The notes under the pieces were generated by a model. It was not told the DNA's origin and searched no databases. It saw only the letters and a list, made by a program, of their open reading frames with translations. Shown piece after piece: positions 20,291 through 64,000 of a stretch of DNA of 64,000 bases. Every line of letters starts with the position of its first letter. Position 1 is the first letter of the stretch. A program made the position numbers and the translations under genes. Origin of the DNA: Halichondria panicea (taxonomy: Eukaryota; Porifera; Demospongiae; Suberitida; Halichondriidae); the NCBI RefSeq assembly GCF_963675165.1, contig NC_087389.1:3966830-4030829 (forward strand), given 5' to 3'.

Positions 20291-20328
<38 letters not shown>

Positions 20329-23300: not shown

Positions 23301-26300
23301 AGCTGAGCTATACATTCGCCCTAGTGTACGATAATTGGTACTTCCAAAGGTCAGAGGTCAGTTTGACATATGACAGAACAACGACCTTTGTGTGAGGTCA
23401 CCCCTTTAGAGACTACACGATTTTCCTGAAGGGGCGCAGTAGCTAAAAGTAAACTACTTTGCAGCGGCACTAACATGAAGGGGCTATTTTATAAGGGCGC
23501 AGCAAGCAGTAACCTTTATTGTACAACTGATTGTCGCACGTGATCATTAATTAGTGACCTTTTGACCCTGTCCAACCTCCTCTGCATGCATGCACACAGC
23601 CCAAAACTTATTGGCTCTTCAATTGTACAATAATGGTGCTGAGAAGGAACAAAAACAAGAAAGCGACCAATGCTTGGGTAGTCTACTTTCAAACAATGTG
23701 CATCAACTCTTGAATTATTAAGAATATTCTGTGGTGCTAATTGGTCTGATCTGATTGAATTTTGGCATCTGTATAGAAGTCCATATTCATAGCTAGCGTG
23801 TATATACGTACATGTACAGGTTGTGCGTTAAAAAAGCATATATTGACAATTTAATAAATTATCATTAGGTTACCTTTAGATGGAGCACAAAAGGTCTACT
23901 ATTACATCAAAACACTGACGAATGATCATTCACAGAAACCATTATTTTGTTATTGTGGTTATATTTTTCTATTGAAGCAAACCAAAAGCCCCCGTTTTAC
24001 ACGAGGTCGAATCCGGATCAGAACACCCATATTAGTTCTGTTCACGTGCACACAATAACACTATAGTACTAGGAGTATAACCCAGTAGATGGCAGGAGTA
24101 TAAGTAAAATGTTTTCTTCCTCGCTTAGAGAAAAAGATAGTAAAATAGAACCCTGCACGGACTCACCTCACTACAAATTTGGTATTTACGACTAGGCCAT
24201 AGTCATAAGCTTAGTTACCGCTTAGTTACACCAGTTTGTGAATCGTATGCATATACTAGGGCGAATGTGGCATGCAATTGAACGATTTTTAGTTTAATGA
24301 TCACGCTGCACGCATGGAATTATTGATCTCGTCTGATATACTGGGACAGAGCCATTTTTAGTTGGCGACCCTCACTTAACTGATTCGCCAATTGGCAAAA
24401 TGTACCCGCTACAAATGTACCCGCTACAAAATCTGGCACAATGAGATATATAGCTATACACCTTGCTCTCAGCCAACAAACTATATAGACTTGTATATAT
24501 TTTCATATCTGAAACGCTGTGTAATAATGGATGCAATACTTGATTTTATTCACACAAAACACACTTTGTTCTCATTAAATGATGACTATTCTTCGTGTCA
24601 TCAATAGACTGGTGGTGAATAAGAATATAGTCTTTGCACTCTTTATGTTTAAAGCAACTTTCTGATTTTGTGCAAAAACGTTCATCATGTTGACGTTCAA
24701 AGTGGAATGGACTGATCCAAGCTCCAACTGAAACATCTTCATTGTTGTAAAGAACAAATCCGTCAGCATTCATAGCAATTCTGTGTACAAGGTCTTTAGA
24801 TATTACGTAACCTCCTCCCAATGCATATGGGAGGTACGTATCGCTCAGATCCCATTGTGTTTCTGCCCATTGTCCACTTGTTTTTGGATGGGATCTTGAA
24901 GCAATCTTCCCCCAGTAGAGCGGTCTTTTCGTTGTTCTTGCTCTCAACTCAAACTCAATCAGATCCAACTTGGGAAATGAATCGTCGTCAGTTTTAAGAA
25001 TGTAGGAGTAATTGAAGTATTGGTCTATCCACATAAACGTTCGTAGAGTTTTCCGAGTGAGGTTTTGGTAAGATTCAGAGTGGTCTGTCAGAAACAATAA
25101 GTCTTCAAACGCTTCTCTCTCCAACATGAGTTGCTTTTTTTCTTTGGCTTCCAGATTTTGGGTTCCAATAACAAACTTTACTGGAAATCGTTTCCCATGC
25201 ACTACATAGCTTTCTACCCAAGTTTTTCTAATAATATCTCTCTTGGCCGCGTTGTTTGGTGTTGAAATGATCAATACAAGTAACAAGTTTTCCTCATAGT
25301 TACTTAGTGATATAGAACTGACGGGCATCACTTGACAACCAGATCGATCAGAGTTATTGACAGAGATCAGTGTTCCACAGTGTGCTCTTGGCTCGAGGCA
25401 ACTAGTCAGGACATTGTTAGATCTACTTGAGGTTAATAAGGTTGATAAGTACAATACAAAAACGATTGATACTAAAAGTAGAAGTAGAGTAACATAGACT
25501 ATCTTTTTTAGCCTTCTAAACATGCTAAAAATGCAAGTGTCAGCATTCAAACAGCAGGTGAGAGATCAGATTACATAAACCACAATTATAAAGGTGGGTG
25601 GTTACTCTAAAGAGAATGAATGGTATATGAATGGTACAATAGGCTATATAGCTAGTGCAAGCAATTTGTTACAAACTATACTAGCTCATGTTATTCCTTT
25701 GTCAGGATGAGAATTCATCAGCTATATACCTGTACATCTTAGCACTGTGCTGAGACACCTATACAAATGAATGTTACAAGCTCCGCTGTGCTAATGTGTC
25801 TCTGCATGTTTTGCTTCGCTCAAAATGTGTTAGAGTGTATAAGAGAGGTCATTAGTTTTTCCAAGGGCGTATCGACTGAGAGAGGGCATGCAACTCAGCA
25901 TTTATCTAACGTCAAATGATAGTCACGGAAATACCCGATATGCCATAAATAGATATGAGTGACACGGACTTTCCACAGTTCACGGAGTACTTCATACTTA
26001 GCTATAGTGTATATATCATAATAATTATGATCGTGCTAGTGAGTCTAAGACTCCAGCGATGAGATATAGACAAAGGAGGACGTCATCAAGTCTCAATGTA
26101 TTCAACTAGTGGGAGTATAGTGAGGAAGTACCAGCGTCTCAAAGCACGACCATCGCCTCTTAAAGATCATATCTGGAGGCGTTTGCGCGGTTGTTCCTTG
26201 TCACTGTTAGAGTCTTCAACAGAGATTCAGAGAAGATTGTCCTTGTCTCTTATACTTGCAAATAGGATCTATTCAGAGCTAACCAGCGTACACAATAAAC

Positions 26301-35084: not shown

Positions 35085-35710
35085 GGTTGTTGTGGTTTGT
35101 TGGGCTCCTCCCACGAGCCTTTGATGTGGACGAGCCTTTTCCTCTGCTGTACTGTACCTATGTACCCTAACCCCCCCCCCCCCCAGTAGTTAATGATATT
35201 CATAGCACCACACGCGTGTGGTACGCCCACGTAATGACATTCATGGTTGTTGTGGTTTGTTGGGCTCCTCCCACGAGCCTTTGATGTGGACGAGCCTTTT
35301 CCTCTGCTGTACTGTACCTATGTGCCCTAAACCCCCCCCCAGTAGTTAATGATATTCATAGCACCACACGCGTGTGGTACGCCCACATAATGACATTCAT
35401 GGTTGTTGTGGTTTGTTGGGCTCCTCCCACGAGCCTTTGATGTGGACGAGCCTTTTCCTCTGCTGTACTGTACCTATGTGCCCTAACCCCCCCCCCAGTA
35501 GTTAATGATTTCATAGCACCACACGCGTGTGGTACGCCCACATAATGACATTCATGGTTGTTGTGGTTTGTTGGGCTCCTCCCACGAGCCTTTGATGTGG
35601 ACGAGCCTTTTCCTCTGCTGTACTGTACCTATGTGCCCTAAACCCCCCAGTAGTTAATGATATTCATAGCACCACACGTGTGCGGTACGCCCACGTAATG
35701 ACATTCATAG
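35085..35710. repeat. Four tandem copies of a ~157-bp repeat
   Basis: Units begin GTTGTTGTGGTTTGTTGGGC near 35086, 35246, 35402 and 35558. Each holds a TGTACTGTACCTATGTGCCC block, a variable C-run, TAGTTAATGAT and the palindromic CACCACACGCGTGTGGT. Differences are mainly C-run length. The array ends about 40 bp before the transposase ORF and may belong to the transposon's 5' region. Confidence 0.92.
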
Positions 35711-35753
35711 CCTGTCCCCCACCTGCACTGGCGAGCACTCTTGTGGTACTCTA

Positions 35754-37349
35754 ATGATATTCATACTTTGTTTCCGTGCAGATGCTGCAGTGGAGGATGA
35801 TGATGAAATGGTCGATGGCATGGCTCCGACTCCCAAACGGAGGAAGCTGGCGAGGGACAATGGACTCCAAAAAGCTAAATCCACAGGAAGATACCCCGTC
35901 TTTGGCGGTGTGGTCGGTCCTGTCGATCAACTTGATCCGTCTGTAACTCCATGCCTAGATTTTGTTAAGTTACTTTGGCCTGATAGTTTGTGTGAGTACA
36001 TAGCCAAACAGACCAACCTGTACGCTAGGCAGTGTGGTGCTAAGGGTTGGTCAGCTACAAACAGTGCCGAATTGTGGGTGTTTTTGGGGATTGTACTAGA
36101 GATGGGCATTCATAGGCTCCCTGAAATTACGGACTACTGGTCCAAGGATCCCCTTTTAGGTGTACAATCTGTGAGCAATGTAATGTCGCTCAAAAGGTTC
36201 CAAAGTTTATGGCGGTATCTGCACTGTGAGGACAATACGTCCATCACTGATGCACGTAAGGTAACTAGCAAGCTAAAAACTGTTTTAGAGACTCTTAAAG
36301 CCAACTACTTCATGAGGTATAATCCCAGTCAGGAGCTTTCCGTTGATGAGATGATGATACAGTACAAGGGTCGTAAAAGCGGGAAAATTCATATGCCCAA
36401 GAAGCCTGTTAAACTGGCATTCAAGGTATGGTGCTGCTCATGTTCATGCTGTGGGTATCTCTGTGTGTTTGATGTATACAGTGGTAAGCTCACCGATTCC
36501 TCTGGGAAAAAGATAGCTGTGAAAGGGCTTGTGAAAAATGTAGTCCATCGTTTACTCACTCCTTTTTATGGTCATCAGCATGTTGTGTACATGGACAACT
36601 TTTACACGTCCGGTCCATTGATAGAAGAGTTGGCTAAGCAAAATGTGTTTACTGTCGGCACAATTTTGAAGAATGCTGCTGGTTTCCCAGCAAGTCTTAA
36701 GGATGTGGTACTCGACAAAGGTGACTATACGTCCATGACTGTTGGTGATATTTCTTACTCTATGTTTAACGACCGTAGAGTTGTGTCCTTTGCAACAAAT
36801 GTGTTCCCTGACCATATGCCCCACACTGTAATGCGAATGCACAAAGACGGTACCCTACGCTCTCAGAGTGCCCCCCCCTGTCTCCCTGCATATAACATGT
36901 ACATGGGAGGAGTTGACAATACAGGGCGTATGAGGAAAACCTATGGGTACGATAGAAAGTGTCGGCGGTATTGGTTCAGGATTTTCTTTCAATTCCTTGA
37001 CGTTAGTGTGAATAATGCATACATTCTATACAGGCACAACTGTGTCAGGGTGGGTTCAAAGGCCATGCCTTTGAAAGGGTTTCGATTGGAACTAATTCAT
37101 AGTCTATTGGGTGTGCCACGTACTCGTAGCAGTGCCTCAGGTCTGGCCAGTCTAAATATCGTTTTCCCCCCATCACAGGGCGCACGTGTGAGTGCAAATA
37201 GTGTCGGAGTGTCTCGTGGGCGCTGTCAAGTGTGTGTTCGGGAGAAGATCCCTAGCAGAGAGCAGCAACACACTGCAATGGCATGTCCCCACTGTCGCAT
37301 AAGAATATGCAAAGGACACTCTGTTATCGGACACACATGTGCTAGCTAA
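35754..37349 (+). CDS. piggyBac-type transposase, intact ORF
   Basis: An open frame of 531 codons with no break. The DDE_Tnp_1_7 core has the three expected catalytic Asp in ELSVDEMMIQYKG, VVYMDNFYTSG and MGGVDNTGRMRKTYGYDRK. The C-terminus has a Cys/His cluster (CQVCVRE...CPHCRIRICKGHSVIGHTC) like the cysteine-rich DNA-binding domain of the family. The true start is uncertain. TTTGTTTCCGTGCAG at about 35767-35781 looks like a splice acceptor, so the first residues may be intronic, and the methionines in DDDEMVDGMAP are alternatives. I could not find TTAA-flanked terminal repeats, so it may be a mobile copy with unrecognised ends or a domesticated gene. Confidence 0.88.
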   Translation: MIFILCFRADAAVEDDDEMVDGMAPTPKRRKLARDNGLQKAKSTGRYPVFGGVVGPVDQLDPSVTPCLDFVKLLWPDSLCEYIAKQTNLYARQCGAKGWSATNSAELWVFLGIVLEMGIHRLPEITDYWSKDPLLGVQSVSNVMSLKRFQSLWRYLHCEDNTSITDARKVTSKLKTVLETLKANYFMRYNPSQELSVDEMMIQYKGRKSGKIHMPKKPVKLAFKVWCCSCSCCGYLCVFDVYSGKLTDSSGKKIAVKGLVKNVVHRLLTPFYGHQHVVYMDNFYTSGPLIEELAKQNVFTVGTILKNAAGFPASLKDVVLDKGDYTSMTVGDISYSMFNDRRVVSFATNVFPDHMPHTVMRMHKDGTLRSQSAPPCLPAYNMYMGGVDNTGRMRKTYGYDRKCRRYWFRIFFQFLDVSVNNAYILYRHNCVRVGSKAMPLKGFRLELIHSLLGVPRTRSSASGLASLNIVFPPSQGARVSANSVGVSRGRCQVCVREKIPSREQQHTAMACPHCRIRICKGHSVIGHTCAS

Positions 37350-37554
37350 TGTGCTGTGTGACTGATTTTTCTTAGATGGTACTCTCCTGGTTTAAATTGG
37401 CCTTGGAGAGGGGAGGAAAGGGGTATTATTTCAATGATTAATAAAATTGTGATAAAGAATTCAGTTGTATATGAGAGGCCCTAACCCACTCTGTTGTAAA
37501 TTCTGTTGTAATTATAAAGCAGCTTTGCTGCAGTATAGTAGCCTCTATACCAGG

Positions 37555-37630
37555 TCGGTATTATTAACGGGTTGTTATTTTAGCGAATTTAGCGAATTGA
37601 CATTTTTTCGCTAAATCAACCACTCGCTAA
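37555..37630. repeat. Left arm of an inverted-repeat element around the RT copy
   Basis: CCAGGTCGGTATTATTAACGGG, followed by a TTTTAGCGAATTTAGCGAA block, matches in inverted form the sequence at about 39655-39750 (GTTGGTATTATATTGGCGGG, TTTTAGCGATTTG). The retrotransposon copy lies exactly between these arms. Confidence 0.6.
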
Positions 37631-39620
37631 CAACTCTGCGCTGGACAAATTTCGGGCATTGAGGCTGCGGTACACGCAGCTACTACACTCTTCCAACAAG
37701 ACGACACAGAGGCTATCCTGCTTGTGGACGCAAGCAATGCGTTCAACGCACTCAACCGCCTTGTGGCCCTGCACAACATCCGTCGTCTCTGTCCCCCACT
37801 GGCCACAGTTTTGATCAATACGTACAGGGTACCAACTGAACTATTTGTTGATGGTGACGTGCTCTACTCCTGTGAAGGCACCACTCAAGGGGACCCCCTA
37901 GCTATGCCCATGTACGCATTGGCTACAGTACCCATCATCAAGAGATTACATTCCCTCTCCGAAGACATTGATCAGGTGTGGTATGCGGATGACGCCGCTG
38001 CAGGGAAAATTGTCAGATTACAGGAATGGTGGACCAATCTTTCTACACTAGGTCCCAAGTTTGGATACTTTCCAAACCCCCAAAAAACATGGCTTGTCAC
38101 CAAAGAGAAGCACCTTTCCTCAGCTACAACCCTCTTTGCTAACACTGGAGTGCAAGTCACCTCGGAGGGCAGACCATACCTAGGGGCCGCACTTGGCACT
38201 GAAGAATTTGTCACCTCACACGTGCAAGACAAAGTTGGAATGTGGTCTAAGGTTCTGGATAAGCTAACTGTGGTCGCAGAAACACAACCACATGCTGCTC
38301 ATGCTGCTTTCACTCACGGTCTCTCCAACAAATGGTCATACCTCACACGTACCATCCAAGGCATTGGAAACCTCCTAGAACCGCTGGAATCAACAATCAG
38401 AATGAAACTTTTACCCACCCTGACGGGTCAACCACCCCCATCCGACGAAATGCGTGACCTCCTAGCCCTACCAGCGAGATTGGGCGGTATAGCAATAAGC
38501 AACCCCACTGCTGTGGCTGAGGCAGAATTCTCCGCTTCCACCAAAGTTGCTGGCCCCCTTAAGAACACCATCCTCCAACAAAGCTTCGAGTATGCCACAG
38601 AAGTAGCCGAGGCTCAAGTGAAAGCCAGGAATGAGGTCCGCCGATCAAATCGGGAACACTGTAAACATACAGCGGACACCCTGAAGCAATCCCTTTCTAC
38701 CACTCTAAAAAGATCTATGGACTTAGCACAAGAGAAAGGCGCTTCTAACTGGCTCACCTCCCTCCCCATCCAAGAATTTGGATTTGCCTTACATAAAGGA
38801 GCTTTTCGAGATGCCCTCTCACTTCGCTACAGTTGGCAACCATCAGGAGTCCCCTCATCTTGTGCATGCGGCAAACAATTCTCAGTCGATCACGCTCTGT
38901 CATACCCTAAGGGCGGTTTCACCATCACCAGGCACAATGAAATAAGGGATTTAACGGCCAACCTACTCACTGAAATTTGCAGTGACGTCTGTGTAGAGCC
39001 TGAACTACAACCTGTAAGTGGTGAAGAACTAATCGGGCTGTCAGCAAATGTCCAAGACGGTGCCAGATTAGACATTGCGTGTAATGGCTTCTGGGGTGGG
39101 CGCTTTGAACGTACATATCTAGATGTACGAGTGTTTAATCCCCATGCAAAATCAAACCAACACACCAACTGCTACAGGAAGCATGAACTTGAAAAGAAAA
39201 GACAATACGAACAACGCGTCAGAGATATCGAACACGCCTCATTCACTCCTTTGGTGATGTCAGCCACAGGTGGTATGGCCAACCAGGCCACTGTGTTCTA
39301 CAAAAGGCTTGCCTCAAACTTGGCAATCAAATCTAATGAAAGCTACAGTAGAACACTGTCCTGGCTAAGGAGCAGAATTACATTCTCTCTCCTACGCTCT
39401 GCCATTCAGTGCATCAGAGGATCCCGCTCCAGTCGTGGACAGCCAGCCAGGTCCCAGAATCACCCCTCAGCGGACCTGGCCAACTCGGAACTAAACTTCA
39501 ATGAATAAATACATGGTTTTAACTTTTACATGACTTTAGTTTTTGCATTACATTAACCCTGTCCTCATTTCACCTTATGAATCTTATAAAAAATAAAAAA
39601 ATAAAATAAAAAAAATAATA
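37631..39620 (+). mobile_element. 5'-truncated non-LTR-type retrotransposon with long RT ORF
   Basis: The frame is open from 37631 to the stop at 39508, with no natural start: the first RT residues (QISGIEAAVHAATTL) follow directly on a stop codon. RT motifs are DASNAFNALNR, GTTQGDPLAMPMYA and VWYADDAAAG (YADD catalytic box). The C-terminal part has CACGKQFSVDHAL, RHNEIRDLTANLL and GGMANQATVFYKRLASNLA, found also in the pseudogene at 53-54.7 kb. An A-rich tail (about 39583-39616) follows. Truncation at the 5' end plus an A-rich 3' tail is typical of target-primed retrotransposition. The missing N-terminal RT segments argue that it is not autonomous. The clade is not assigned. Confidence 0.88.
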
Positions 39621-47455: not shown

Positions 47456-47977
47456 GATTAAATTGTTATGTTTAAGATATTGTTTGTTATGCTTAAAATA
47501 ATTTTTGTTTATGTTTTTACTTGTACTCAAATTGTGTGTGGCTTTACTAGGCATGCTAAAGCAAGTGACAAAAAATTTTGGTAACAACGAATCTGTTCCT
47601 TACTTAGCATACACTGTAGCTAAAGGCTTGTACAACAGCTACCAGCTAAAACTGGCTTGTACTTGCTCACCGTTATTCCATAAGCACCGTCTCAGTAAAA
47701 ATTCCAGGGGGGCTGGTGGTAGCTTTTTGTAACAAAAACAGTGCAACCTCTTTCAAAAATAAGAGACATGGCATTATTTAAGGCTTGGTGGTTGCTACAA
47801 CACCTATGCAGCCAGTATCAGACGTTATAGCTTGAGTTATAGGACTGCATCTTCAGCTATTGCCACTAACCTACAACACTATCAAGCGGAGCTTCTTTGT
47901 GATTTTTGTTGCTGTTGATGACGTCACGGTTGCAAATATATTCACGTGAGCTGTCAGATGGCGGAGCAACTGCCAAA

Positions 47978-50900
47978 ATGGCTACAAAAAGTGACCTTGA
48001 TGCTCTGGTGGTCCAAGTGGAAGGATTGGATCTAGAGGAGAACAGAGCTGGCTCAGGGGCTTATGGCTGTGTCTTTAGAGTGACGGTGAATGGAAGACAC
48101 GTTATTGCTAAGAAGGTACACCACGTATTGCTCCAAAAGCAATCCGTTATAACAATGTTCAGAAATGAATGTCGTATTCTGAGTGTTTTACATCACCCCA
48201 ACATTGTCTGTTTCATTGGAGTCCATTACGGCCGCGATAAGAACGACATCAGTCTAATAATGGAGAGGCTTCATTCCGACTTGGCTGATTTTGTTGAAAC
48301 CCATCGAGACACGAATATCGCCACTAGAATCCATATCCTGTATGATGTATCCAAGGGCCTTCACTATCTCCACTCACTGATCCCTCCCCTCATGCATCGT
48401 GACCTCACTGCTCCCAACATCCTGCTCACTGAGGACCTCACTGCCAAGATTGGAGACCTGGGTACGGCCAAGTACGTAGACCTGGAGAGATTGACTCAGA
48501 ACAAGACTCAAATTGTTCTGACAAACGTCCCGGGAAATCCAACCTACATGCCCCCCGAGTGTCTCGTGGAGCCGCCCACCTACACTACCAAGCTGGACAT
48601 CTTCTCATTCGGTCATCTCATCATTCACACTGTTATCGGTGATTTCCCTAAAGTCAAGAACGTACCTCAAGGTTTTCGCAGCTATTTCAACTCTATCAGA
48701 GGAAAGGAGGAGCTCATGCGTCGAAGCACTGCTGTCCATGGTGACAAAATGGGGGAGAAACACGCTCTTTATCCTCTTGTTGTTAGCTGCCTCCATGACC
48801 GACCTCAACAGAGACCATCAGTTGACAAAGTGATTGTCTCACTCAGAAAGCTGTGTCTACAGCACCCCAGGATGGTACGTGAGTGAGTGGGTGGAGGTAT
48901 CAAATGTGCATTGTCAGCTTATATAGTGTTAGTGTCGACTGTATGCTGCATGGTACTTCTGTGTGGGTGACTAGAATTATATCCGTCTTAGCTGATACTC
49001 ATTTTTCTCCCAGGAATTTCTGGATGCTTGTAAGACGGATAATGTGGGTGTGGTTCTGGAGCTACTGGAGTGTGGGGCTGATCCCAACCAGGCAGACAAG
49101 GTGAGGGGAATACTGTCTACAGTGCCAATATATGTCCATTGGTTGATGATATTATCTCTATAGGATGGTGCAACTGCTGTTCACTGGGCCAGTAGGAAGG
49201 GACACTATACGATAGTGAGGGTCCTCTTAGCAGCCAAGGCTACAGTCAACACTCAGAACAAAGTTGGTTTTGTTGTACAAACACATTTCCGACAACATGC
49301 TGTTTACATTGTTTTCTTCCCAGTCGGGAGAGACCCCTCTTTGGACAGCCAGTTTCAATGGTCACCAGATATGTATGGAGCTCCTAATCGATGCTGGGGC
49401 CAATGTTGATGTACCCAAAGAGGTGAGTGTAAGTAGCTGTACACACATCCCACTAGCCACAGAGCCTCCCCATGTTCTGTTGACTTGGTCCATTAGACAC
49501 CAGAGCTAGTCATGTTTGTGTAGAGAGCACTGGTAGTTGGTGTATCCCCTGACATTAGTGTAGATAGTCATGTGATATTGTATAATGAGTGGGTCTGTGA
49601 TGAGTGATGGTTCACCTGCTCACAGGATGGATCCACTGCGTTGATTGTAGCTGCTTGGAATGGTCATGTGAGGGCAGTGGAATTGTTGATTGTTGTAAAA
49701 GCTAAAATTGACATTCAACAAAAGGTGGGATTTATTGCTTGTGTGCTTAAAATTACTTGGTTATTGTACAGGATGGAGCCACAGCATTGTACATTGCCAG
49801 TGAGAACGGTCACTGTGGAGTTGTTAGAATGTTGTTGGAGGCCAAGGCTGACGTCCACAACAAGACTAATGTGAGTCACGCTGCATGGTGGTGTTTGTTT
49901 ACTCTGCATGGTGGTGTTTGTTTACTCTGCTGATTCCATGGTTGAGTGTGTGTACACTGTTCAAAATGATGTGTTCTGGAACACACTTTTGGGATGTTGG
50001 TATGACACTTTAAATTTGACACCCCTAAAGGTGTTTTGTAACACATAGACTGTTGTGTGTTGCTGAACACATTGGCAAGTGTGTTATCTAGCACATGCAT
50101 AAGTGCCTTTAAGCACACTAATAATGGTAAATGTGTTGTCTAGCACACCATACAGTGCCTTCAAGCACACTAATAATGGTAAATGTGTTGTCTAGCACAT
50201 GCATACAGTGCCTTCAAGCATGCAGTGTTCGTAACTTGGTTATTTTCAGGACGATAAGATTACTTCTATAGCTGTTGCAATTTCAACGAAATGTACAAGT
50301 CATTTAACACAAATCAGTTGCAATTTCAACGAAATGTACAAGTCATTACAAATCAAAAACACATCTATACAACGAACGACTATTTAAATGTTATACGGAT
50401 TATTACAACACATTACTGTTAATGACAGCACATCACATGTTTCCTTTTTGACGAAAGAGCGCACAGCAGCAGTAGCACATTTTGATTGAAGTCATCTTGT
50501 CATCTTGTCCTAAATAATAAATACAATTATGTCAATTATGTCTGGTAAGCATATCTATTACTCCACGTACCTGGATACTTTTCTGCACATTTATAGCAGT
50601 TAGTATGTCCCAGAGAATAGTCACTTCTGTACCCAAACCAGTGCTCAAGTCAAAAATGAGGTCAAGTTCTGGGCTGAGTTGTGAGAAAGGCTATATATAA
50701 TTTATATGATCATATCACACAGTATTTCACCAGCTTACCACATGAATGGCCTTTGGAAGCTCCATGAAGTGCTGCAGTAGTGTATATTCTTCAGGAAAGC
50801 TAAATACTCAGTGCAGTTAGTATAGAGCTAAATTTAGTTCTTCTCCAGTTCTTGAGTCTTTGTTGATTTTAATTAAAGCACACTACATGTGCTTCTAGCC

Positions 50901-52946: not shown

Positions 52947-54720
52947 AAGACAGGCAGGCATGTATAGCCAGTACAAGGTCGAGCAGTAGGTCTGCTCCCA
53001 TTTTTTCAGCTAGACAAGAGGCAAGTCGCTTGTAAAACGTTGTGGACTGTTTTGCCATGCCCCCTGTGGCCGAGAGGACTATTGGAGTGAAGGTTGAGTT
53101 TTCGACATCTCGGACTCTTTGCTCATACTCAGTCAGGTAGGTAGGTTAAGGACTGGGACCAGCAATTATTGCTGAATCAGCTAAAACGCAGCCACACCCA
53201 CGATTTTTAATATGTTTTGTGTGTAAAAAATTAGTTTAGCTACTTATCTTTTTTAGTTCTAATTCCGGAGGTCTAAACCTTCCTTTCAGCTCTAAATGTT
53301 TAGTGTAGTAGGTAGTTCAAAGGTTTGTGCAGACTATTCAATCGGGAGGGAGCATGGTACTCTATGAAAAGTAAGTTATTAGCTTTTACATTTAAAATTA
53401 ACAGCTAGAAAACTACGTTTTTTTCAAAATCTCACCTTTGGCTGAATAAACAGCTCCCTCCCAATTGAATAGTCTGCACGAACCTTTAAACTACCTACTA
53501 CACTAAAAATTTAGAGCTGAAAGGAAGGTTTAGACCTCCGGAATTAGAACTAAAAAAGATAAGTAGCTAAACAAATTTTTTACACACAAAACATATTAAA
53601 AATCATGGGTGTGGCTGCGTTTTAGCTGATTCAGCAATAATTGCTGGTCCCAGTCCTTAACCTACCTGAGTAAGCTCTTCTTTTTTTTTCTTTTCGTGCT
53701 TCTTGTAACAGTTTGTAATGCTAGAGTTTTTGTTTGACTGCAGCGTGTGGGTTGAACATCCTGACATCCAGGAATGTCTTCTCTTGGCGTCCTCCCCAGA
53801 ACCCTTTCAATAGAGACATCAAGTCTGGCACCATCCGATATATTGGTGGTTCCACCGAAACATCATGGCAGATTTTGGTGAGTAGGTCGGCAGTGATATC
53901 CCTGATTTCATTGTGGCGAATCGATGGAAATCCTCCACGGGAGCAAAAGAGGACGTGCTCGACCGAGAAGTTGGCACCACAGTCGCCATGCAGTGTATTG
54001 GCGTACCTGCAGGCGTCCAACCATATAGCGTAGAGACATAGGGCGTCCACAAAGGCACCCTTGTGTAGACTGAAGCCGAACTCTGAGATCGGTAGTGAGG
54101 TTAGCCAATTGGATGCACTCCCTCTCGCTTGCGAGATCCAGCGTCCTAGTGTTGGTAGGGGTGAGACGCTGCTTGATTTCTTCTGCTGCTAGGGTGGATT
54201 GTTCCCTGCGCAGCTGTTTGACAGCAGATTTGGCTGACAACTGGGCATCCATGTACCCGAAGGATTATTCTGGATTTTGTAGCAGGATGGACTCTATTAG
54301 TGGCTTGGAAATGGAGTGGGAAGCGGAGAACTGTAGATCACACTGCTTTGCTGGGTTGCTTAGGCCCAGACCCCCGAACCTTGTGGGCAGGGCAAAGATA
54401 TCCCTATCTGTGTCATTAGGGGGTGGTCTTCCAGTGATGGTGGGAATGAACACAGTGCGTAGGATGTTCTTCAGAAGTTGAAACTGACTGCCCCCAGATT
54501 CGGCACGATATGAGAGAGATGGGACCATTTGCTGTAGAATCCATGAGTAAATGCGGCATAAGCAGCATGAGGCTGAGTGGTGGCTATCTCTGACAGTGTT
54601 TTCAACTCGTTTAACCATAAGTCCACCTTTTCACGCACAAAATCCGTTGTAAACTCCGAAGAGCCCAGATGGGCCCCCATGTATGGCTCTATAAAAATCT
54701 TTTCCAATTATACCCAGACA
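52947..54720 (-). pseudogene. Decayed non-LTR RT copy, split by a foldback element
   Basis: The minus strand matches the ORF at 37631-39508 in order. The YMGAHLGSSEFTT region is at about 54690, RPPPNDTDRDIFALPTRFGG at about 54400, FSVEHVLF...RHNEIRD at about 53920, TFLDVRMFNPHA at about 53770, and YEQRVRD...SATGGMAKQSTTFYKRLAS at about 53120-53030. It has several frameshifts and stops and no catalytic YADD part. The foldback element at 53139-53667 interrupts it between the NCYKKHE and YEQRVRD motifs. Confidence 0.9.
53139..53667. mobile_element. ~530-bp foldback element
   Basis: Arms of about 230 bp are nearly perfect inverted repeats, starting TAGGTTAAGGACTGGGACCA and including GAATCAGCTAAAACGCAGCC and AGTTCTAATTCCGGAGGTCT. 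The spacer of about 90 bp is centred near 53400. It lies inside the RT pseudogene, so it is the younger insertion. Confidence 0.9.
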
Positions 54721-55571: not shown

Positions 55572-58500
55572 ATGACTACTGGTACCCCTGAATACAAAGC
55601 CATCTGTAGCTGCAGAGTGGATCTGACAGAGAGGCTCTCTAATTGCTTCAAAGATGTAGCTGAATACTTAAGTCAGAGTGGAGCACTGACTGGCAAACAA
55701 TGCCAAACAATCATCAGTGCTGAGATGCTCCTAAATTATGTTCTTGTGGACATCAAAGACCCAGACACCACATTGGATGCTTTTGCCTACTTTGTGACAG
55801 CAATGAAACAAAGTGGAAACACATTCTTCAAAGTATTTGTCAAGAAACAAATTGAAGCTAAACGAAAGGAGTTCTATAGGGAATTGCTCCAGGTTCCACC
55901 AGGTATGTATAATGGTAAAGGACGTGATTGAATTTTCCCATGTTCACAGGTTTCCAGGCATCTCAGGAATACGACGTTTTCATCAGCTACAGCCGTGAGG
56001 CTGACACCATGCGCACAGTGGACACTCTTATGTTGCGATTGAAACAAGAAGGCCTCACTGTGTTTGTTTGTAAACGTAGAATTCGTCCTGGGGACAAATG
56101 GCGATCTGAGATTGCCTCCGCCATCAAAACCTGCAAAGCCTTTGTTTGTGTGCTCACTAAACGCTACGTGAGGTCTGTGTACTGCAATGGAGAGCTGTAC
56201 GAAGCAGAAGCTCTTGGCAAGCCTCTGTTCCCAGTGGTGTGTGAGGATGGATGGGAAGATGTGCCTGGAGGTGCTCCTGTGACGGAGGTAGTGAGAGACT
56301 TTCAGTATGTCTCGCTAGTAGTGGCAGAGGACAGGGAGAATCAACTAACAAGACTGGTGCAAAGTATCAAAGGTCAGTCAGTAACTAATCTCATCAAATA
56401 GTGTTACACCAGTCCTACATTTTGATAGTACCATTCATCGTTCTAAGTGGTGTTTCATTTGCAGAAGCAGTTCCCGTAGCTCCAGGCTCGTCTAATCTGC
56501 CCACCGATCATGCTTGTAAGATGTAGTGACCATGCATATAGTGTTTCCGTTAATTAAAACCTTGACCCTCGTCCACTCTGCACACAAACAAACACACACA
56601 CACTCAGGTATCTGAATAATGCCTATAATTATAAGCATATTCACAATAGAAGGCTATAATATATATCCATGCATGCTGTAAACGCTAGCAAATTTCAAAC
56701 AGACAGACACACCAACAGACTATACTAATGCTCGTGGTCGTTCGAGTTAACATAATGCTTTTCTGCTTTTACTCTGCAGGGTTGGTGAACAAAGCCACTA
56801 CACAACTGTCAGAGCACACACTTCTAACACAAGATGAGATTGGTGCTCTACAGAAGCTTATCGAGGGAACAGAAGTGAACATTGATGACATCATTGCTAC
56901 TGGTCAAGGCATCACTCTTGAAGAAGCTCAACAATTGCTTGCTCAGAAAGGATACATTGAGGACGCAGGGAATCTCAAGACAAGGCTACAAGAAAGTAAG
57001 TTTGTACATATCTGTAGTGCTTATAGCTAATTACCTGAGGGTTGTATATATATTCACTTCATAAGGGGTTAGTGTAAAAGCTGGAATGCGGAATGGAATG
57101 GAATATGGAACCGAATATGTAATGAAAAAATGAGTAATAAAATATATTAATACGGTAAGCGTGAAATGTATTCTTTTAGAGGCACTTCCACGAAAATATA
57201 ACTCAGGCTATGCGGTACAGTGCATGCATGCATGCCTTTCATCTATAGAGAATATAAATCATATAAATCACTCATTTGTGCGAAGTTGTGAAGCTTACGT
57301 CTTATATATAATTATATATAATTATGCCCAGTCTGTAGTGTAAAAACACTGCGCTACCAATCAAGTATAGCTATAGAGAGTGTCACTTTAGTGTAGCCGT
57401 ATTATAATTATAGCTATAGAGTATGTCAGGTCAGAGGAAGATGCTCCTTTACATAATACATATAAGTATGTCATCTGTGTACCTGGTTGAGTTGCACAGT
57501 TTGCTAGGAGAGCATTCCTGTTTAGCATCAGCAACACACCTCACTATATAGGAGCCGGTTTTAAGTGCTCTAATGGTGTAGGGCAATCTGTGCTTGTGAC
57601 GTCTGCACAGCATGTATCTCTGGCTCCTAGTGAGGTGTTGTTTAGTGTGATCGAGGGTTGATGCTAAACAGGAACACCCTCCTTATATAGATAGGTTGTG
57701 CACCTCACGCATTCAACAATGACCCCGCAATAGCCACGCCGATTATTCCTGTTTAGTAGTGGCCCTATATACAAGCGCTTTAGTGTAAGGCTAACTCAAA
57801 GTTGAATAGAGTGCAAACAGATGATACTGTACAAAACATTCTGAAGAGACCTTCACCGTGAGTTAACTCGAGAAGAAGCTTTTATAGTTTGCAAATCCAC
57901 GAATCATTGTGTCTAACTGATCCAAGAGAACAGGTACACACAGACACACACAGTCAGCTTTACCGTATATATAGCTGGTTATTTTCGAGGCACTACAATT
58001 TCGAGGGTTGACCTCGAACCTTGTGCCCTCGAAAATTGGTTTACATCCAGTATTGAAGCCTCTCTACTGTATAGGGGTGTGGTCATTTGAACCTCTATCC
58101 TCAAAAATAAAATCGGCGAAATGTTTATTAGTTTGAATCCTCCGCGACATTTAGTGCCTTAAAATAACTCTTGCTATTCCGGCTCTCTGAAGTATATATA
58201 TATGGCCACCTCTATATTTGGTTTGGCATGGATTAATTATTGCTTGTAATTATGTTTACTGCACAAAACTCACCCTGAAATGTGGCCACTCGCTATTCGG
58301 TAACTAGGTTTTTAATGTAATTTTATACGTTTATTACGGCCGGATTGACATTTTGGGTATGGTTTGGCAGATAAAATTGGATTACACTTTAAATAGAGAA
58401 CATCCTTCATTATCCTCGAGACAGAACCGTCATTAGATTTGAGGTAGGGTCGTTTTTAAGCCCCAGCTACTTTCTGAAATGCGACTAACTCGCCAAGCTA

Positions 58501-61500
58501 CACTGTACGAAAGTCTACTGTATACAGTATTTCTCGTGCAGCTACGCCTCGAGCAACAAACACAATCAGTTTTCTGCTTTGTTTAATTTCCCCTATGTGT
58601 TATTCTCTGAATAGCTAATTGAGTTTGGGAGAATCCTGTTGGGATGTATTGTATATCCCACAGGATTCTCCCAATTATTGTACATTTATGGTCATGTATA
58701 CGTATTGTGCCTCGTGCAAAAATAGAGCTTAATCGGCCTAATCATGATCAGAGTGCTACATATAGTAGTAGTATAGTATACACATGTAGAGCTACTGTCA
58801 ATCAAGAGTAAACTAGTAGAAGATGTATATTCTAGGTGCATTTTTTGTATTTCAAAATGCCACGGTTCCTTAAAAGCTCCTCAAAATTCATCAGAATCAA
58901 TCTCAGAGCATGTAAATACAAAAAAGTTCTGGGGGAGAACCCTAGACCCCCCCATTTAGGCATACAATAGTGCGCGCCGGGTGCTGCGCACCCCAGCCGG
59001 CCATAGTTTGAACTTAACTATGGGGAAAACACTGGTAAAGGATCACTTCAGCTGTAAATACATACCTCGAATAAAAGCCGCGTGTAGCAGCTAACGTGCA
59101 AGTTCAAGCTTTTTTTAGCCTTTGCTCGCCATCAAAAAATCTGCCACCATAACTTAGTGTGCATGGCTGTAACAAAGCGTTTATTGACTCAGATATCACA
59201 AACAAACGGACAAACAAACCAGCCGACCACTGTATAAACATACATTTTTATTTATTTCACATGCAGTTGCTAAAGAGCAGCAGCGATATCTCGAGATACT
59301 CGAGGATTTAATGACAGCTGCTGACACCATCGACCTTCGCTACTTGAAACTGTTTCTTGTTGGCCCACCAAATGTGGGCAAGACGACCACTCTAAGCCGT
59401 CTCCTAAAAATATTTGACAATATTCGTTCAGCTGGAGACAAGGCAAAGCTTCCTAGTACGCTACTCGCTAACTGCATTCAAGCGTTTGCTTTTGTTGGTG
59501 ACGACACAGCAGAGTGGCTGTCTTCCATTAACGTTGACGATGAAGCCAAAATTTTGTTCAACTATTTTTGTGGAAACAACCTAACACCTGAGGCACCGTT
59601 GGACACACCCCTCAGTGAGCAACTAAGTGAAGAACTCACTACGTATACTGCACCCGAACCTTCCAGAGAACAGTCACATGTTCAACAAGATGTACCCCAC
59701 AAGCTCATTTCTGTACAGAACATTGTTTCACAAGTTGATAAACTCAAGACTTCAAGTGAGGAACAAAAGACTTGCAAAAATCAAAGAATTAGCGAGGTTG
59801 TCAGTCAATTTCAAAAGTTGATCATGAGTGGAGACTATTCTACCCTTTTCAATGCTTTGGGAACATTTTTGAACATTAATGATATTGGTGGTCAGCCAGG
59901 CTTTTTAGAAATGCTCCCAGCTCTGAGCACTGGTCCGGCCATGTATCTCGTCTTCTTAGACTTGAGCAAAGAGCTGAACAAGCCGTACAAAATCCCTTTT
60001 AGTCGCGATGACACAATTATCACTCCCTATGACGCTATACACACAGTCAAAGATACCGTGTCTCAAATCCTATCTTCCATCAGTAGCATACATAGTAACC
60101 CTCATGTGACCTCGTCATTCAGGACCGATAAAGTTGATGGATTTAATGAGAAGCTTGAATCATTCCTACAAGTTAGTCCCTTGGCTGCGCTGATAGGCAC
60201 TCACAAAGATAAGCTGGAGCATCCAGAGAAGGAAATCAAGAAAAAAAGCGAAGATTTAAATGACATTGTAAAAACGTTTGAGGAAATATTGATTTGTCCT
60301 GGAGCTACTAGTGAGAGAGTTTCTCTATTTACCGTGGACAACTACACTGGAACTGAGCAGTCGGACATAGCCCCTCTTCGTAATGTGTTGAGTGAAATCT
60401 TTCACACACGCTTTAAGGATGCTTCGCTACCGATTAAACCAAAATGGCTTTTATTTGGACTCATTCTTCGAAGGGAATACAAGATTGCCACTATTGAAGA
60501 TTGTCTAGAGTTAGGGAAGAAGCTTGAAATGGATGAAAATGAAACGAAATTTTGTCTGCGGTATCTTCACGACTGCGTTGGCACTGTCATGCATTACACA
60601 AGCGTTTTGAATGATAAGAAAAACTGGCTCAAGAATCGTGTAATCTGCTCCCCTCAAGTAGTCTTCAATAGCATCAGTCAGCTGATTCTTCCTTCTTTGC
60701 GTGTGCTTCATTCTGGAAGTACTTTCACTTTCACTGAGTATGAGAGAAAGGAGTTGATTAGAATGGGGCAATATTCAGCTGAAGCCATCGAAATGTATTG
60801 CAAAACTGCACAAGTTAGCAAAAAATTGGGAAACGACGAACTTATCCCAGCCAAAAATCTTATATCCCTTCTTCAACACTTAAATCTTCACTCTGAAATC
60901 ATTCACAAAGATGTTAATGACCCAAGCAAATCTCGAATCACCTATTTAATGCCGGCAATATTGGAGTGTGCTTCACAAGAGGAGCTGACTAACCCCCCTC
61001 CACCAGATGCCAACAACCCAGAGCCACTGCTCATCACATTCAGCTGTGGTTATGTTCCAACAGGAGCTTTTTGTGGTCTGATCACTCGACTAGTTTCCCA
61101 AGGCCCTCATGGAATCCTCGGATTGACGTGGGAGTTAGTGGAAAATGGTGTGAAGCGAAATTGCGTATCTTTTTTCGTCGCTAGATCAAACAGGCTAACT
61201 CTACTAGCCCATGATCAATGCTACGAAATTCAAGTTATCCGCTGTCCTGGTTGTCGCATGTCTCTCCATGACCTTTGCACTTATGTTTTCTCAGTGATGC
61301 TCTACACTCTCAAAAGCCTTTACCCACACTTGGTTCCTCAAATTGCATTCCAATGTCCCTGCCCTGGTCACAAGTCCAGCCGAGATAATTTGTGCGTTCT
61401 TACCGAAGAGATCTGGGTACAGTTTCTTTGTGGTAGTAAGCTGGTAACTCCAACAAAACACCAACAAGTTTGGTTGGGTAAGGTAGGTTATTTATATTTA

Positions 61501-62921
61501 AATGTTTTGTGTTTCATATTTCTTGCAGACTGCTTCTATTGGTCTGAGTGCTAGCTTGGAAGTTCTCCAGTTCATGAAGGGACAGTCTCTGAAGACATTT
61601 TCTTTCAATTGGAGCAAAGTGGGAGATGACGACACACAGCTTTCAATTCATCACTCCAAGCCCAACATGCTCACCTTCCAGAGTGTGAGTGAGGAGGACC
61701 TTGACTACTACCAGTGTGAGGTTAAGGAGGCTGGGAAAGTGGTCCTCACTGTCTATAGAGCTCTCTACGAAGGTGAGCTCAGTAAGTTCTGTACATACAT
61801 GTGCCGACCCTTTGCTTCTGTGTTACTGTTCCAACACATACTAAAGTACCATTGATGATGTTGAGCCCTCATTATAAATTCATTTTGCAGAAGCTGTGGC
61901 ACCTTTATTACCTTTATCACCAGTTCCCGTAGCTCCAGTCTCGTCTAATCTACCCATTGACCAGGCTGGTAAGACGTGCTATAGTTACTTGATTAGCAGA
62001 TTATTATCCCTCCTCAGGCAAATCATCCTCTGTAATAGAAGATGTGTGTAAGGAGACTGGAGTGAGTGATCACCAACTCGACCAAGAAATCCCTGAGAGG
62101 CACATCATTCTCTTAGCGGAGAAATTTCCACACCTACTGAGCGTGCACAAGGTAGGCAGTACATCTAAATCATATACGCAACTTGTCGACCTGACATTTG
62201 GCAAAGCAATATATTAGGGGAGGGGTTGATGTTAAGAATATTGCTCACCAGAACCACTCAATTGTATTCCTATTGAGTTTCCTCTGGAAGGTATTTCCGA
62301 GGGCAACCCCCACCAAATGAAACCCTGTTGATTTTGCTTTTGTACAGGCTTTGACAATTAACGATCTGCAACATGTTTACGAGAAACTACACACTGCACA
62401 TGAAAGTGCCAGCCCTCACTGGTTCAATCTGGGATTGGCTCTAGGTCTGACTCATTTTATTCTCACCAATATCGATAGCAAGCATCATGGTGATAATGTG
62501 TCATCATTGCGTGAAATGTTGGCTGAGCTCCTGCGTACGAAAGATGTAACATGGAGTCTCCTATCAGATGGTCTCAAAAAGCCCACGGTGAAGCTCATCA
62601 ATTTGGCTGATAGCGTCACAGGTAACCATTTTCAGTGTTTATGCATATGGTATATACGTACATTTAATCTTTTTTCTTTGCACAGCCACAACTCCTAACC
62701 TGCTCGATCGACTCAACCTCACCCCAGCCGACCTCGGTGATGTAACTGATGTCACACGTCATTATGGCAATCAAGCTGGAGTGGCTTATGCATTGAGAGT
62801 GTGGCAAAGAGTGAATCCTTCCAGAGCTACCTTCAGGGCCTTGGTGGAAATTGCCATAGGACTGAGAAGAGGAGACACTGCTGTAGACATTTGTAGATTT
62901 ATTGTAAAGGAACTAAACTGA
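55572..62921 (+). CDS. Death-fold/TIR/ROCO-COR/Ig-like/Death-Death protein, 10 exons
   Basis: Exons: 55572-55902, 55950-56372, 56465-56515, 56780-56995, 59267-61482, 61529-61772, 61891-61968, 62018-62151, 62348-62621, 62686-62921. All phases agree (1400 aa). Residues 1-110 are a helical CARD/death-like domain. The TIR domain spans about 115-250 (EYDVFISYSRE; RRIRPGDKW; CNGELYEAEALGKP). A helical linker is at 269-340. The ROCO-type GTPase starts at about 370, with P-loop GPPNVGKTT, DIGGQPGF at about 546 and GTHKD at about 650. A COR-like region follows (KWLLFGLILRREY). An Ig-like domain is at about 1080-1160 (DLDYYQCEV), then death-like domains at about 1187-1320 and 1323-1400. There is no signal peptide or membrane segment, so it is probably cytosolic. 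By family knowledge TIR, death and ROCO domains build signalling platforms, so an innate-immune or cell-death role is likely but inferred. Exons 3 and 7 are duplicates. A further 5' exon is possible. Confidence 0.92.
56996..59266. other. Long intron 4 of the TIR/ROCO gene, repeat-filled
   Basis: It holds a truncated copy of dispersed repeat subfamily A (57770-57966), a diverged ACCGTATA...TCGAGG inverted-repeat MITE (about 57963-58070), a hairpin at 58625-58674, and a copy of the 22550-22800 repeat at 59035-59230. No exon is supported here. Confidence 0.65.
58625..58674. repeat. 20-bp inverted repeat
   Basis: TTGGGAGAATCCTGTTGGGAT and ATCCCACAGGATTCTCCCAA pair with one mismatch across a 9-bp loop. 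Confidence 0.8.
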
Positions 62922-63022
62922 GCTTAACAATTTTTATTGAACATTTTTTGTCTGTCTAATTAGTACGTGGGCGTAGGTGTTCCAGCATAATTATGTCATA
63001 TTAATTATAACATTGTTTTCTG

Positions 63023-63645
63023 CAGGAGCACATTACAGAAGGAGCGTCTTACCTCGGGAATCGCATCTCGTGGAAGTTTGCAAAGCATGGCCTTATAATT
63101 ATGCAAAACCACTAAGTGGGTCTGCGGGCGAGTGCTAATTGAGCTGACGGTGCACTTTTGGCAAGCATAGGTCAATAAAAGTGAAAAGCTACAGCTAGCT
63201 AGCTAGCTATAGGCCTGGTAGTAAGCTCTCTCTTCTAACAACCCCAGTAAGACTCCCTACTGCAAAAAAAAAACGCCTAGTATGTGTTAGTCTAAGTCTA
63301 ACAAACTTCTCTGTACAAAGTGACTGGATATGCTCCTATTTTAGAACTTTCTGTACCTTACCGATGACAGTCTCTTCCATGATGTATACCAACATCCATC
63401 AAAGATCTAGCTATTCATTTTAGCTCTTTCTGGCTCAACCTAGCTCTCCTGCTGCTGCACTACATACAAAATCCGTTCATAATGATATTCACAGGCTGAC
63501 CGCGGTCTGTAATTTATGTACACAGTACTTACACACTTTTATTATAAGGCAATGCGGTGTTTAGGAAAGCACACGAGATGCGATTTCTGAATCCATGCAC
63601 AGTTAGACGCTCCTTCTGTAATGTGCTCCTGTTTTCTGTAATGTG
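63023..63645. repeat. Inverted repeat pair downstream of the TIR/ROCO gene
   Basis: Bases 63023-63090 (GGAGCACATTACAGAAGGAG, AATCGCATCTCGTG) recur inverted at about 63560-63630. The spacer holds no gene. It may be an element or the edge of a duplicated block. Confidence 0.6.
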
Positions 63646-63900
63646 CTTTTTTCAACACATTGTTGTGGTAAATTATTGAGCATGCGCAGTAGGAACACAA
63701 CAACGCCCACATAGTTTGGGAATTCAGGGTGGCATATGCATGTCTAGGAGTTTTCCCAGCTGAGCTCAACAAGTGCTCCCTTGAGATCCCTGCTTTGGCT
63801 AGCTATGAAATACCAAGGTCAGCAAGGCGTTTTATTGTGCGTGAGTATCTAGATCTACTGGTACCCCTCTAAATACAAAGCCATTTGTAGCTTTCGTTAT
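63620..63900 (+). repeat. Partial copy of the TIR/ROCO 5' region
   Basis: Bases 63675-63780 match the kappaB-bearing unit at 39.8 kb (here GGAGTTTTCCC at 63747-63757). Bases 63855-63895 (CTACTGGTACCCCT-TAAATACAAAGCC-T-TGTAGC) match the first codons of the TIR/ROCO gene at 55576-55615. The copy lacks the ATG, diverges within 45 bp and is cut by the window edge soon after. Confidence 0.6.
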
Positions 63901-64000
63901 CGAAAATAGAATGGGGATCACAGTGGAGTTGTGGAGAGCTCGCATTGGGCAGTTCAGTGGTGGGAGGGGATCACAACCACACAGTAAAGCTCCCTCGACA

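Follow-up and report, generated by a model that had tools for sequence, protein, structure and literature searches.

In a 64,000-nucleotide stretch of the genome of the sponge Halichondria panicea (NC_087389.1, positions 3,966,830-4,030,829; hereafter the window, to whose positions coordinates refer unless a contig is named), ten exons on the forward strand between 55572 and 62921 form a gene for which the best reading of the sequence is a single chain uniting CARD-like, TIR, ROC-COR GTPase, Ig-like and death-like parts. With a probability of about 0.55, we interpret it as a single gene and a phase-matched mosaic, in which a ROCO-Ig cassette (exons 3-6) sits at intron 2 of a CARD-TIR-linker-death-death gene. 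Judged by homology, the mosaic is rare within a large family of swappable parts. Relatives of both parents survive in the same genome, which provides a record of how a multidomain immune-type protein can be assembled: an entire GTPase-Ig cassette has been set into a TIR/death gene at an intron of phase 1, and the flanking linker exons are the mark of this.

The exon chain and its domains

A preliminary description of this DNA had proposed ten in-phase exons and a product of 1400 residues, and splice joining across 55572-62921 bore this out, with nine GT..AG introns, agreeing phases and no internal stop codon. The parts follow one another as CARD-like, TIR, linker, small exon, ROC-COR GTPase, Ig-like, second linker and two death-like domains. 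The domain order given earlier is thus retained, and two parts that it did not mention have to be added, namely exon 4 and a linker exon that is present twice (exons 3 and 7). Own-genome searches (131 Mb, 39 contigs, of which those named below are labelled C6, C8, C10, C14 and C22) detected homologues of each of seven exons (1, 2, 4, 5, 6, 9 and 10), the number of matches, window included, ranging from 17 for exon 1 to at least 150 among the matches listed for exons 9 and 10. Because all seven have such relatives, the gene is not a product of chance.

Exon 1 (55572..55902, residues 1-110) is assigned as a CARD-like death-fold by Pfam CARD scores of 17.3 bits in the window and 19.9 and 18.5 bits in paralogues (E-values 7.5e-4 to 4.9e-3 in three of three copies). 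The N-terminal death-fold of the preliminary description may be specified as CARD-like, yet the scores remain below the Pfam cut-off of 23.9. The assignment of exon 2 (55950..56372, residues 111-251) as a TIR domain is certain: the window protein matches TIR_2 at 2.9e-20 and 73.4 bits against a cut-off of 28, a PDB profile search with the TIR family has Roq1 as its top match (2.8e-7), and the predicted structure of the exon matches TIR structures. PADLOC matched 15 models on this exon, most of them TIR-type by name. The glutamate of its CNGEL motif, residue 192, is invariant in all seven TIR copies and aligns with the glutamate of the WCxxEL motif in Roq1 and RUN1, and the TIR family profile has plant and bacterial NAD-cleaving (NADase-type) TIRs on top.

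A linker exon with phase 1 at both ends (exon 3, 56465..56515) comes next and recurs as exon 7 (61891..61968); the two were recognized by their mutual likeness (86% identity over 57 nucleotides). Exon 4 (56780..56995), with 28 genome matches, is a small exon of the ROCO unit without a named family: it appears helical by eye, contains no methionine and has no Pfam family above cut-off. Its interpretation as a TIR companion was dropped, since it tracks the ROCO exon.

The GTPase is encoded in exon 5 (59267..61482), a single exon of about 739 open codons that also contains a cysteine-containing C-terminal part. The P-loop GPPNVGKTT reported earlier is present in the window protein, and the motifs expected of a ROC-type GTPase (G1, GPPxVGKTT; G3, DIGGQP; G4, THKD) are invariant in 12 of 12 exon 5 copies. 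Pfam Roc matches all 12 copies at E-values up to 1, the best being 7.6e-4, although no listed score attains the cut-off of 27 bits; three of the copies match COR-A below cut-off (best 2.2e-5), and COR-A reaches 40 bits (cut-off 35.3) in L044, a relative with 29% identity. In the own genome, COR-A matches below cut-off overlap 11 of the 60 ROCO loci described below (overlap judged by eye). Through these relatives, a COR domain appears to follow directly after ROC. L044 (JAKSCP010000286.1) was the one relative found in a GTDB scan, whereas an IMG/VR scan found none. The L044 contig is filed as a Pseudomonadales metagenome-assembled genome and looks chimeric, since part of a ROCO gene of animal-like type comes after atp genes that are bacterial. 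A weak PADLOC match of exon 5 to AriA (0.0043) was not used.

Exon 6 (61529..61772) encodes an Ig-like domain, as all 13 copies match Pfam Ig_3 at E-values up to 1; the best value is 1.8e-6, and the copy in the window gene scores below cut-off. In the alignment, the tryptophan and the F-strand cysteine are invariant and the B-strand cysteine is absent, which fits a cytosolic location. The exon may extend to 61781, nine nucleotides further on, since the GTAAG equivalent to 61782 is the only donor in five of five aligned paralogues; both donors preserve the phase, and the product has 1400 or 1403 residues accordingly. The first C-terminal death-like domain (exons 8 and 9, 62018-62151 and 62348-62621) is assigned via relatives of exon 9: Pfam Death gives no match to the two exons in the window, and above cut-off it overlaps three of the 150 listed exon 9 loci (C14:4989951, C14:5089608 and C14:589810, the last with an internal stop). 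The second, exon 10 (62686..62921, including the stop codon), is likewise placed through aligned relatives, with Pfam Death at E-values up to 1 in 12 of 15 family members (best 6e-6) and the window's own copy unmatched. ARM, SAM, NB-ARC, LRR, kinase and Ank families were not matched by Pfam anywhere in the 1400 residues, for ARM and SAM at E-values up to 10.

Two gene families and the seams between them

The 71 matches of exon 5 merge into at least 60 loci, 44 of them longer than 2 kb, and this count is a lower bound, as 61 of 328 candidates were scored. Neighbourhoods were tallied with every match of exons 5 (71), 6 (66) and 4 (28); for the TIR exon 17 of 29 and for exon 1 15 of 17 matches were used, after removal of weak hits and of further fragments of an exon already counted. 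At 56 of 60 loci, the ROCO exon is succeeded by an Ig exon no more than 2.5 kb away on the same strand, which makes ROC-COR-Ig the standard core of the family. Exon 4 lies ahead of the ROCO exon within 8 kb at 27 of 60 loci, and within 2.3 kb at 25 of these. The 2.3-kb intron 4, at which the preliminary description had sought a possible gene border, is consequently the wrong intron, and the natural seams are introns 2-3 and intron 6. Pfam scores in the scanned copies are below cut-off, and cut-off-based surveys of animal ROCO or immune genes would therefore tend to miss the ROC-COR-Ig family.

Three ROCO copies, one on C8 and two on C6, have upstream ankyrin open reading frames (ORFs) in place of a TIR: the seven ORFs chosen here for their ankyrin look all matched Pfam Ank, six of them above a cut-off, and two other ORFs on C6 and one on C14 had no Ank by Pfam. 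Death exons of the exon 10 type follow the Ig exon in the six C8 and three C6 copies fetched, and none was seen directly after it on C14 or in the two C10 copies. From these neighbourhoods, the home architecture of the family is most likely ANK-(exon 4)-ROC-COR-Ig-Death. A TIR exon within 10 kb upstream on the same strand was found at three of 60 loci, among which the window alone looks intact; at C10:6596420 the ROCO exon has two TGA codons, and at C10:6586629 the TIR is 7.0 kb away with death-like exons between. As a side observation, ORFs with no Pfam match lie upstream of the ankyrin ORFs in two C6 copies (L038, 7365-7796; L040, 1658-2173) and by eye resemble what we take to be the C-terminal part of Ariadne-type RBR ligases. 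Two places outside the 60 loci, C10:387607-391128 and C22:74479-77456, also have an exon-9-type death domain some 2.5 kb downstream of a COR-A match; one of these matches is just under and one at the cut-off, and they lie in open frames of near 800 codons. The death-domain pair may be common to more than one ROCO class.

The other parent belongs to a different group. Exon 2 has 29 genome matches and exon 1 has 17, and nearly all strong ones lie on C10 at 5.8-6.6 Mb, in addition to C14 and the window. A CARD-like exon is upstream in 14 of the 17 TIR loci tallied, and by these homologies the CARD-TIR genes are a family separate from the ROCO family, mostly on C10. One of them, L043 (C10:6498500-6500560), is a short CARD-TIR-linker-death copy with a frameshifted TIR exon, which matches the window on either side of the cassette and lacks the cassette itself; its single linker exon matches both linkers of the window. 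Its DNA aligns to 55580-56523 (80%), 61878-62199 (82%) and 62232-62925 (96.6%), and the short CARD-TIR copies overall cover about 55572-56523 and 61878-62925. ROCO copies align at their greatest extents to 56752-57062 and 59238-61841. Compared in 100-base steps, the two parental sets of matches overlap in the linker regions only; neither parent matches the greater part of intron 4 or a portion of intron 3.

The left seam zone comprises introns 2-3 (56372..56780), which are 87% like P7, a ROCO gene with a linker before exon 4, and 68-74% like the short genes; this places the crossover from CARD-TIR type to ROCO type near 56371, at the exon 2 donor. The right seam lies in intron 6 (61841..61890), where the ROCO homology stops and the short CARD-TIR homology begins at 61878. 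Between them, cassette exons 3-6 comprise 2727 nucleotides or 909 codons and both begin and end in phase 1. A genome search with the linker exon gave 11 matches: eight on C10, each 44-85 nucleotides behind a TIR exon, one ahead of a ROCO unit, and the two of the window gene. This search missed at least one more: a twelfth, C10:6594250, follows a TIR exon and precedes a death-like exon and exon 4 of the disrupted copy. Among the copies seen, the window gene alone has linkers directly on both sides of the cassette. The nearest copies by protein lie on C10 for exons 1, 2, 9 and 10, on C8 for exon 5 (86%), on C14 for exon 6 (90%), and on C10 or C14 for exon 4 (87%). With 99% identity for exon 9 and 97% for exon 10, the end of the gene is far nearer to L043 than the remainder, which points to a recent exchange in this region.

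Downstream of the gene, 63910-64000 is 94.5% identical over 91 nucleotides to the downstream sequence of the short gene. The spacing up to this point is 611 nucleotides longer in the window, which fits a 609-bp element at 63023-63631, about 100 nucleotides past the stop codon, with 30-nucleotide terminal inverted repeats (97% complementary) and, at its ends, a 7-nucleotide direct repeat (TTTTCTG). ROCO-side matches at this place are due to the repeat element; five other copies of it were seen (88-92% alike), three of which sit in the exon 4-5 interval of ROCO paralogues (C10 and C14). A 38-nucleotide fragment at 63855-63892 resembles the start of a CARD-TIR exon 1 and is perhaps the relic of a tandem copy. 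Elsewhere in the window, the minus strand carries four similar tandem ORFs of 317-339 codons at 10886-25565 that by eye resemble beta-1,3-galactosyltransferases, and ORFs resembling a PiggyBac transposase, reverse transcriptases (on both strands) and, near the gene, a protein kinase were noted by eye at 35670-39505, 47903-48883 and 53721-54707.

Competing explanations

The exon phases would also permit a bypass of the cassette. Phase 1 is common to the ends of exons 3 and 7 and the start of exon 8, and skipping of exons 4-7 (2754 nucleotides) thus keeps the frame, so that the same gene could also yield a CARD-TIR-death-death form. If exon 3 were mainly spliced to exon 8, such an adaptor would be the main product and the long ROCO form minor or absent, and L043 has exactly this skipped exon order, though with a frameshifted TIR exon. 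We consider this explanation unlikely as a description of the main product, given that the ROCO exon is open across 739 codons; the purifying selection on this exon is a signal among paralogues that does not concern the window copy in particular. Less likely still is a division into two genes, with a ROCO-Ig gene of its own inside a CARD-TIR gene or behind it, which would not give any fusion protein. In the C10 and C14 clusters, CARD-TIR and ROCO exons do lie side by side in apparently separate genes, and three CARD-TIR exon pairs there hit a stop soon after exon 2. In the window, however, there is no promoter-sized gap at the seams (introns 2, 3 and 6 have 92, 264 and 118 nucleotides), exon 3 runs into a stop shortly past its donor, and all phases agree. 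The missing methionine in exon 4 and the shortness of intron 3 leave little room for a separate ROCO start; intron 3 contains two in-frame ATGs in the window, and of seven other copies checked, five have no methionine there and two have unrelated upstream frames.

An explanation that is compatible with the others is that the mosaic is recent and possibly transient, heading to a pseudogene and intact by age only. TIR-ROCO and short TIR relatives on C10 are broken by stops or frameshifts (the ROCO exon of C10:6596420, exon 2 of L043, and C10:6579172), and the near-identity of exons 9 and 10 to L043 also speaks for it. Against decay, all 1400 codons have stayed open in spite of 10-20% divergence of several segments from the compared copies, and we doubt that age alone accounts for the intact frame. 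That the assembly has joined two loci is conceivable in a large and repetitive family, and yet highly improbable: among the 61 of 328 candidates scored, the other ROCO exons reach at most 86% protein identity, the assembly would have to be wrong twice, each time at a phase-compatible intron, and the sequence downstream of the gene matches that downstream of the short gene.

Several observations weigh against our reading of the gene as a single-chain mosaic with the domains named. The fusion protein is predicted from genomic DNA. Profile searches and structure prediction, which the preliminary description had suggested as checks, gave a divided answer: TIR is above cut-off and its model agrees with known structures, whereas the window's own ROC, COR, Ig, Death and CARD scores are below the Pfam cut-offs or absent, with no COR-A match to its exon 5, and the AlphaFold prediction of the ROC-COR exon with 12 sequences failed (mean predicted local distance difference test score, pLDDT, of 33.9). 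A Pfam Roc scan of the genome, with 150 of 354 candidates scored, listed 141 matches, of which by eye none lay inside the 60 ROCO loci; hhalign aligned the 12-copy exon 5 alignment to an own-genome LRR-ROC-COR ORF at the P-loop only (22 columns, probability 15.1); and a PDB profile search with exon 5 had no significant match, an unrelated enzyme leading at 0.08 and the ROC domain of LRRK2 standing at 0.16. The last two results speak against a straightforward ROC assignment. For the TIR domain, it is the enzymatic type that is in question. Searched alone, the window's TIR ranks a TLR15 chimera and TLR1 above plant TIRs, and the margin of the family profile over TLRs is small. TLRs are not known to be enzymes, and as the TLR15 and TLR1 sequences aligned to the window's TIR carry the equivalent glutamate too, the CNGEL glutamate is no proof of catalysis.

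Selection was measured among paralogues. The ratio of nonsynonymous to synonymous substitution rates (dN/dS) is 0.15-0.49 for the ROCO exon (nine comparisons), 0.31-0.74 for the TIR exon (five) and 0.38-1.13 for the Ig exon (four). Exon 4 has 0.67-3.1 in four comparisons with very few changes, and the CARD exon has 1.04-1.42, above 1 in three of three comparisons and thus without purifying selection, two of these being not significantly different from 1 (Fisher p 0.48 and 0.72). Comparisons of exons 9 and 10 have two changes each, and the badly aligned exon 8 of L043 was left out. Purifying selection on the ROCO and TIR exons speaks in favour of our reading; the constraint is on these families, however, and the tests do not show that the fusion as such is maintained, which is a point on the opposing side.

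A possible switch and its relation to known systems

ROC-COR domains act as nucleotide-dependent dimers, TIR domains become active once clustered, and CARD and death domains are homotypic adaptors. The predicted product of the mosaic gene would be a cytosolic CARD-TIR-[ROC-COR-Ig]-death-death protein, and the order of its parts suggests signalling arms on either side of the GTPase. Most likely, ROC-COR would serve as a GTP-dependent dimer switch whose opening or clustering would bring the N-terminal CARD and TIR arms together; the TIR would then either cleave NAD or serve as a TIR scaffold, the CARD and death domains would recruit death-fold partners, and the Ig-like domain would provide a protein-binding surface. 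Expression, GTP gating, oligomerisation, the NADase or scaffold output and an immune role are all steps that we infer. In its boldest form, the gene would encode a GTP-gated single-chain immune switch, in which ROC-COR dimerisation rather than SAM rings or NLR wheels activates an NAD-cleaving TIR, and which would be one product of a domain-swapping system. In this system, a ROC-COR-Ig core with at least 60 loci would take up ankyrin, death or CARD-TIR as alternative N-terminal modules via phase-1 linker exons and introns. This proposal is speculative, and we would bet against it in its entirety. If the protein is made, it would permit a direct test of whether ROC-COR dimerisation gates a TIR enzyme.

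The preliminary description had regarded the domain combination as non-standard for vertebrates and insects and as a candidate sensor-to-effector platform, and a TIR upstream of ROCO is indeed rare in this genome; the combination is not unprecedented, however, as ROC-COR-Ig is ordinary here and TIR with ROC-COR has been published for Aplysia and Chondrus. In the open-licence PMC literature, judged mostly by listings, we recognised no description of a CARD-TIR-ROC-COR-Ig-Death protein or of a ROC-COR-Ig family. Aplysia has TLR-like and MyD88-like proteins in which TIR, ROC and COR occur in one animal protein as in the window, the MyD88-like case adding a death-like domain; there, ROCO is part of LRR TLR-like or MyD88-like proteins, and neither a CARD nor an Ig behind COR nor an origin as a cassette is mentioned in the relevant sections (PMC9334734). 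The red alga Chondrus crispus has a TPR-ROCO-TIR protein, and brown algae have LRR-ROCO genes with exon shuffling described as an immune device, so that ROCO candidate immune receptors, a ROCO-TIR fusion and in-phase exon shuffling are shared with our case; according to the relevant parts of that source, the Chondrus TIR is C-terminal and accompanied by TPR, and brown algae shuffle LRR exons, whereas whole domains are exchanged in the window (PMC11378527). Among sponges, for which TIR_2 genes have been reported, Amphimedon shows a lineage expansion of death-fold/TRADD-N genes with swapped partner domains; this expansion is TRADD-N-based, and the relevant parts of the source do not speak of ROC-COR-Ig (PMC8195603).

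With SARM1 and the plant TIR-NLRs (Roq1, RUN1), the window gene shares the TIR profile and model and the catalytic-type glutamate; unlike them, it has no ARM, SAM, NB-ARC or LRR in the chain, and the oligomerising part would be ROC-COR. It is not organised as MyD88, in which an N-terminal death domain stands beside a C-terminal TIR: its N-terminus scores as CARD, its TIR is followed by ROC-COR-Ig, and its death-like domains are C-terminal. DAPK1 has the architecture kinase-ANK-ROC-COR-Death, and its C-terminal half is resembled by the paralogues of the window family, which are apparently ANK-ROC-COR-Ig-Death. The window gene differs from DAPK1 in that no kinase was found, an Ig-like domain lies between COR and Death, and ANK is replaced by CARD-TIR.

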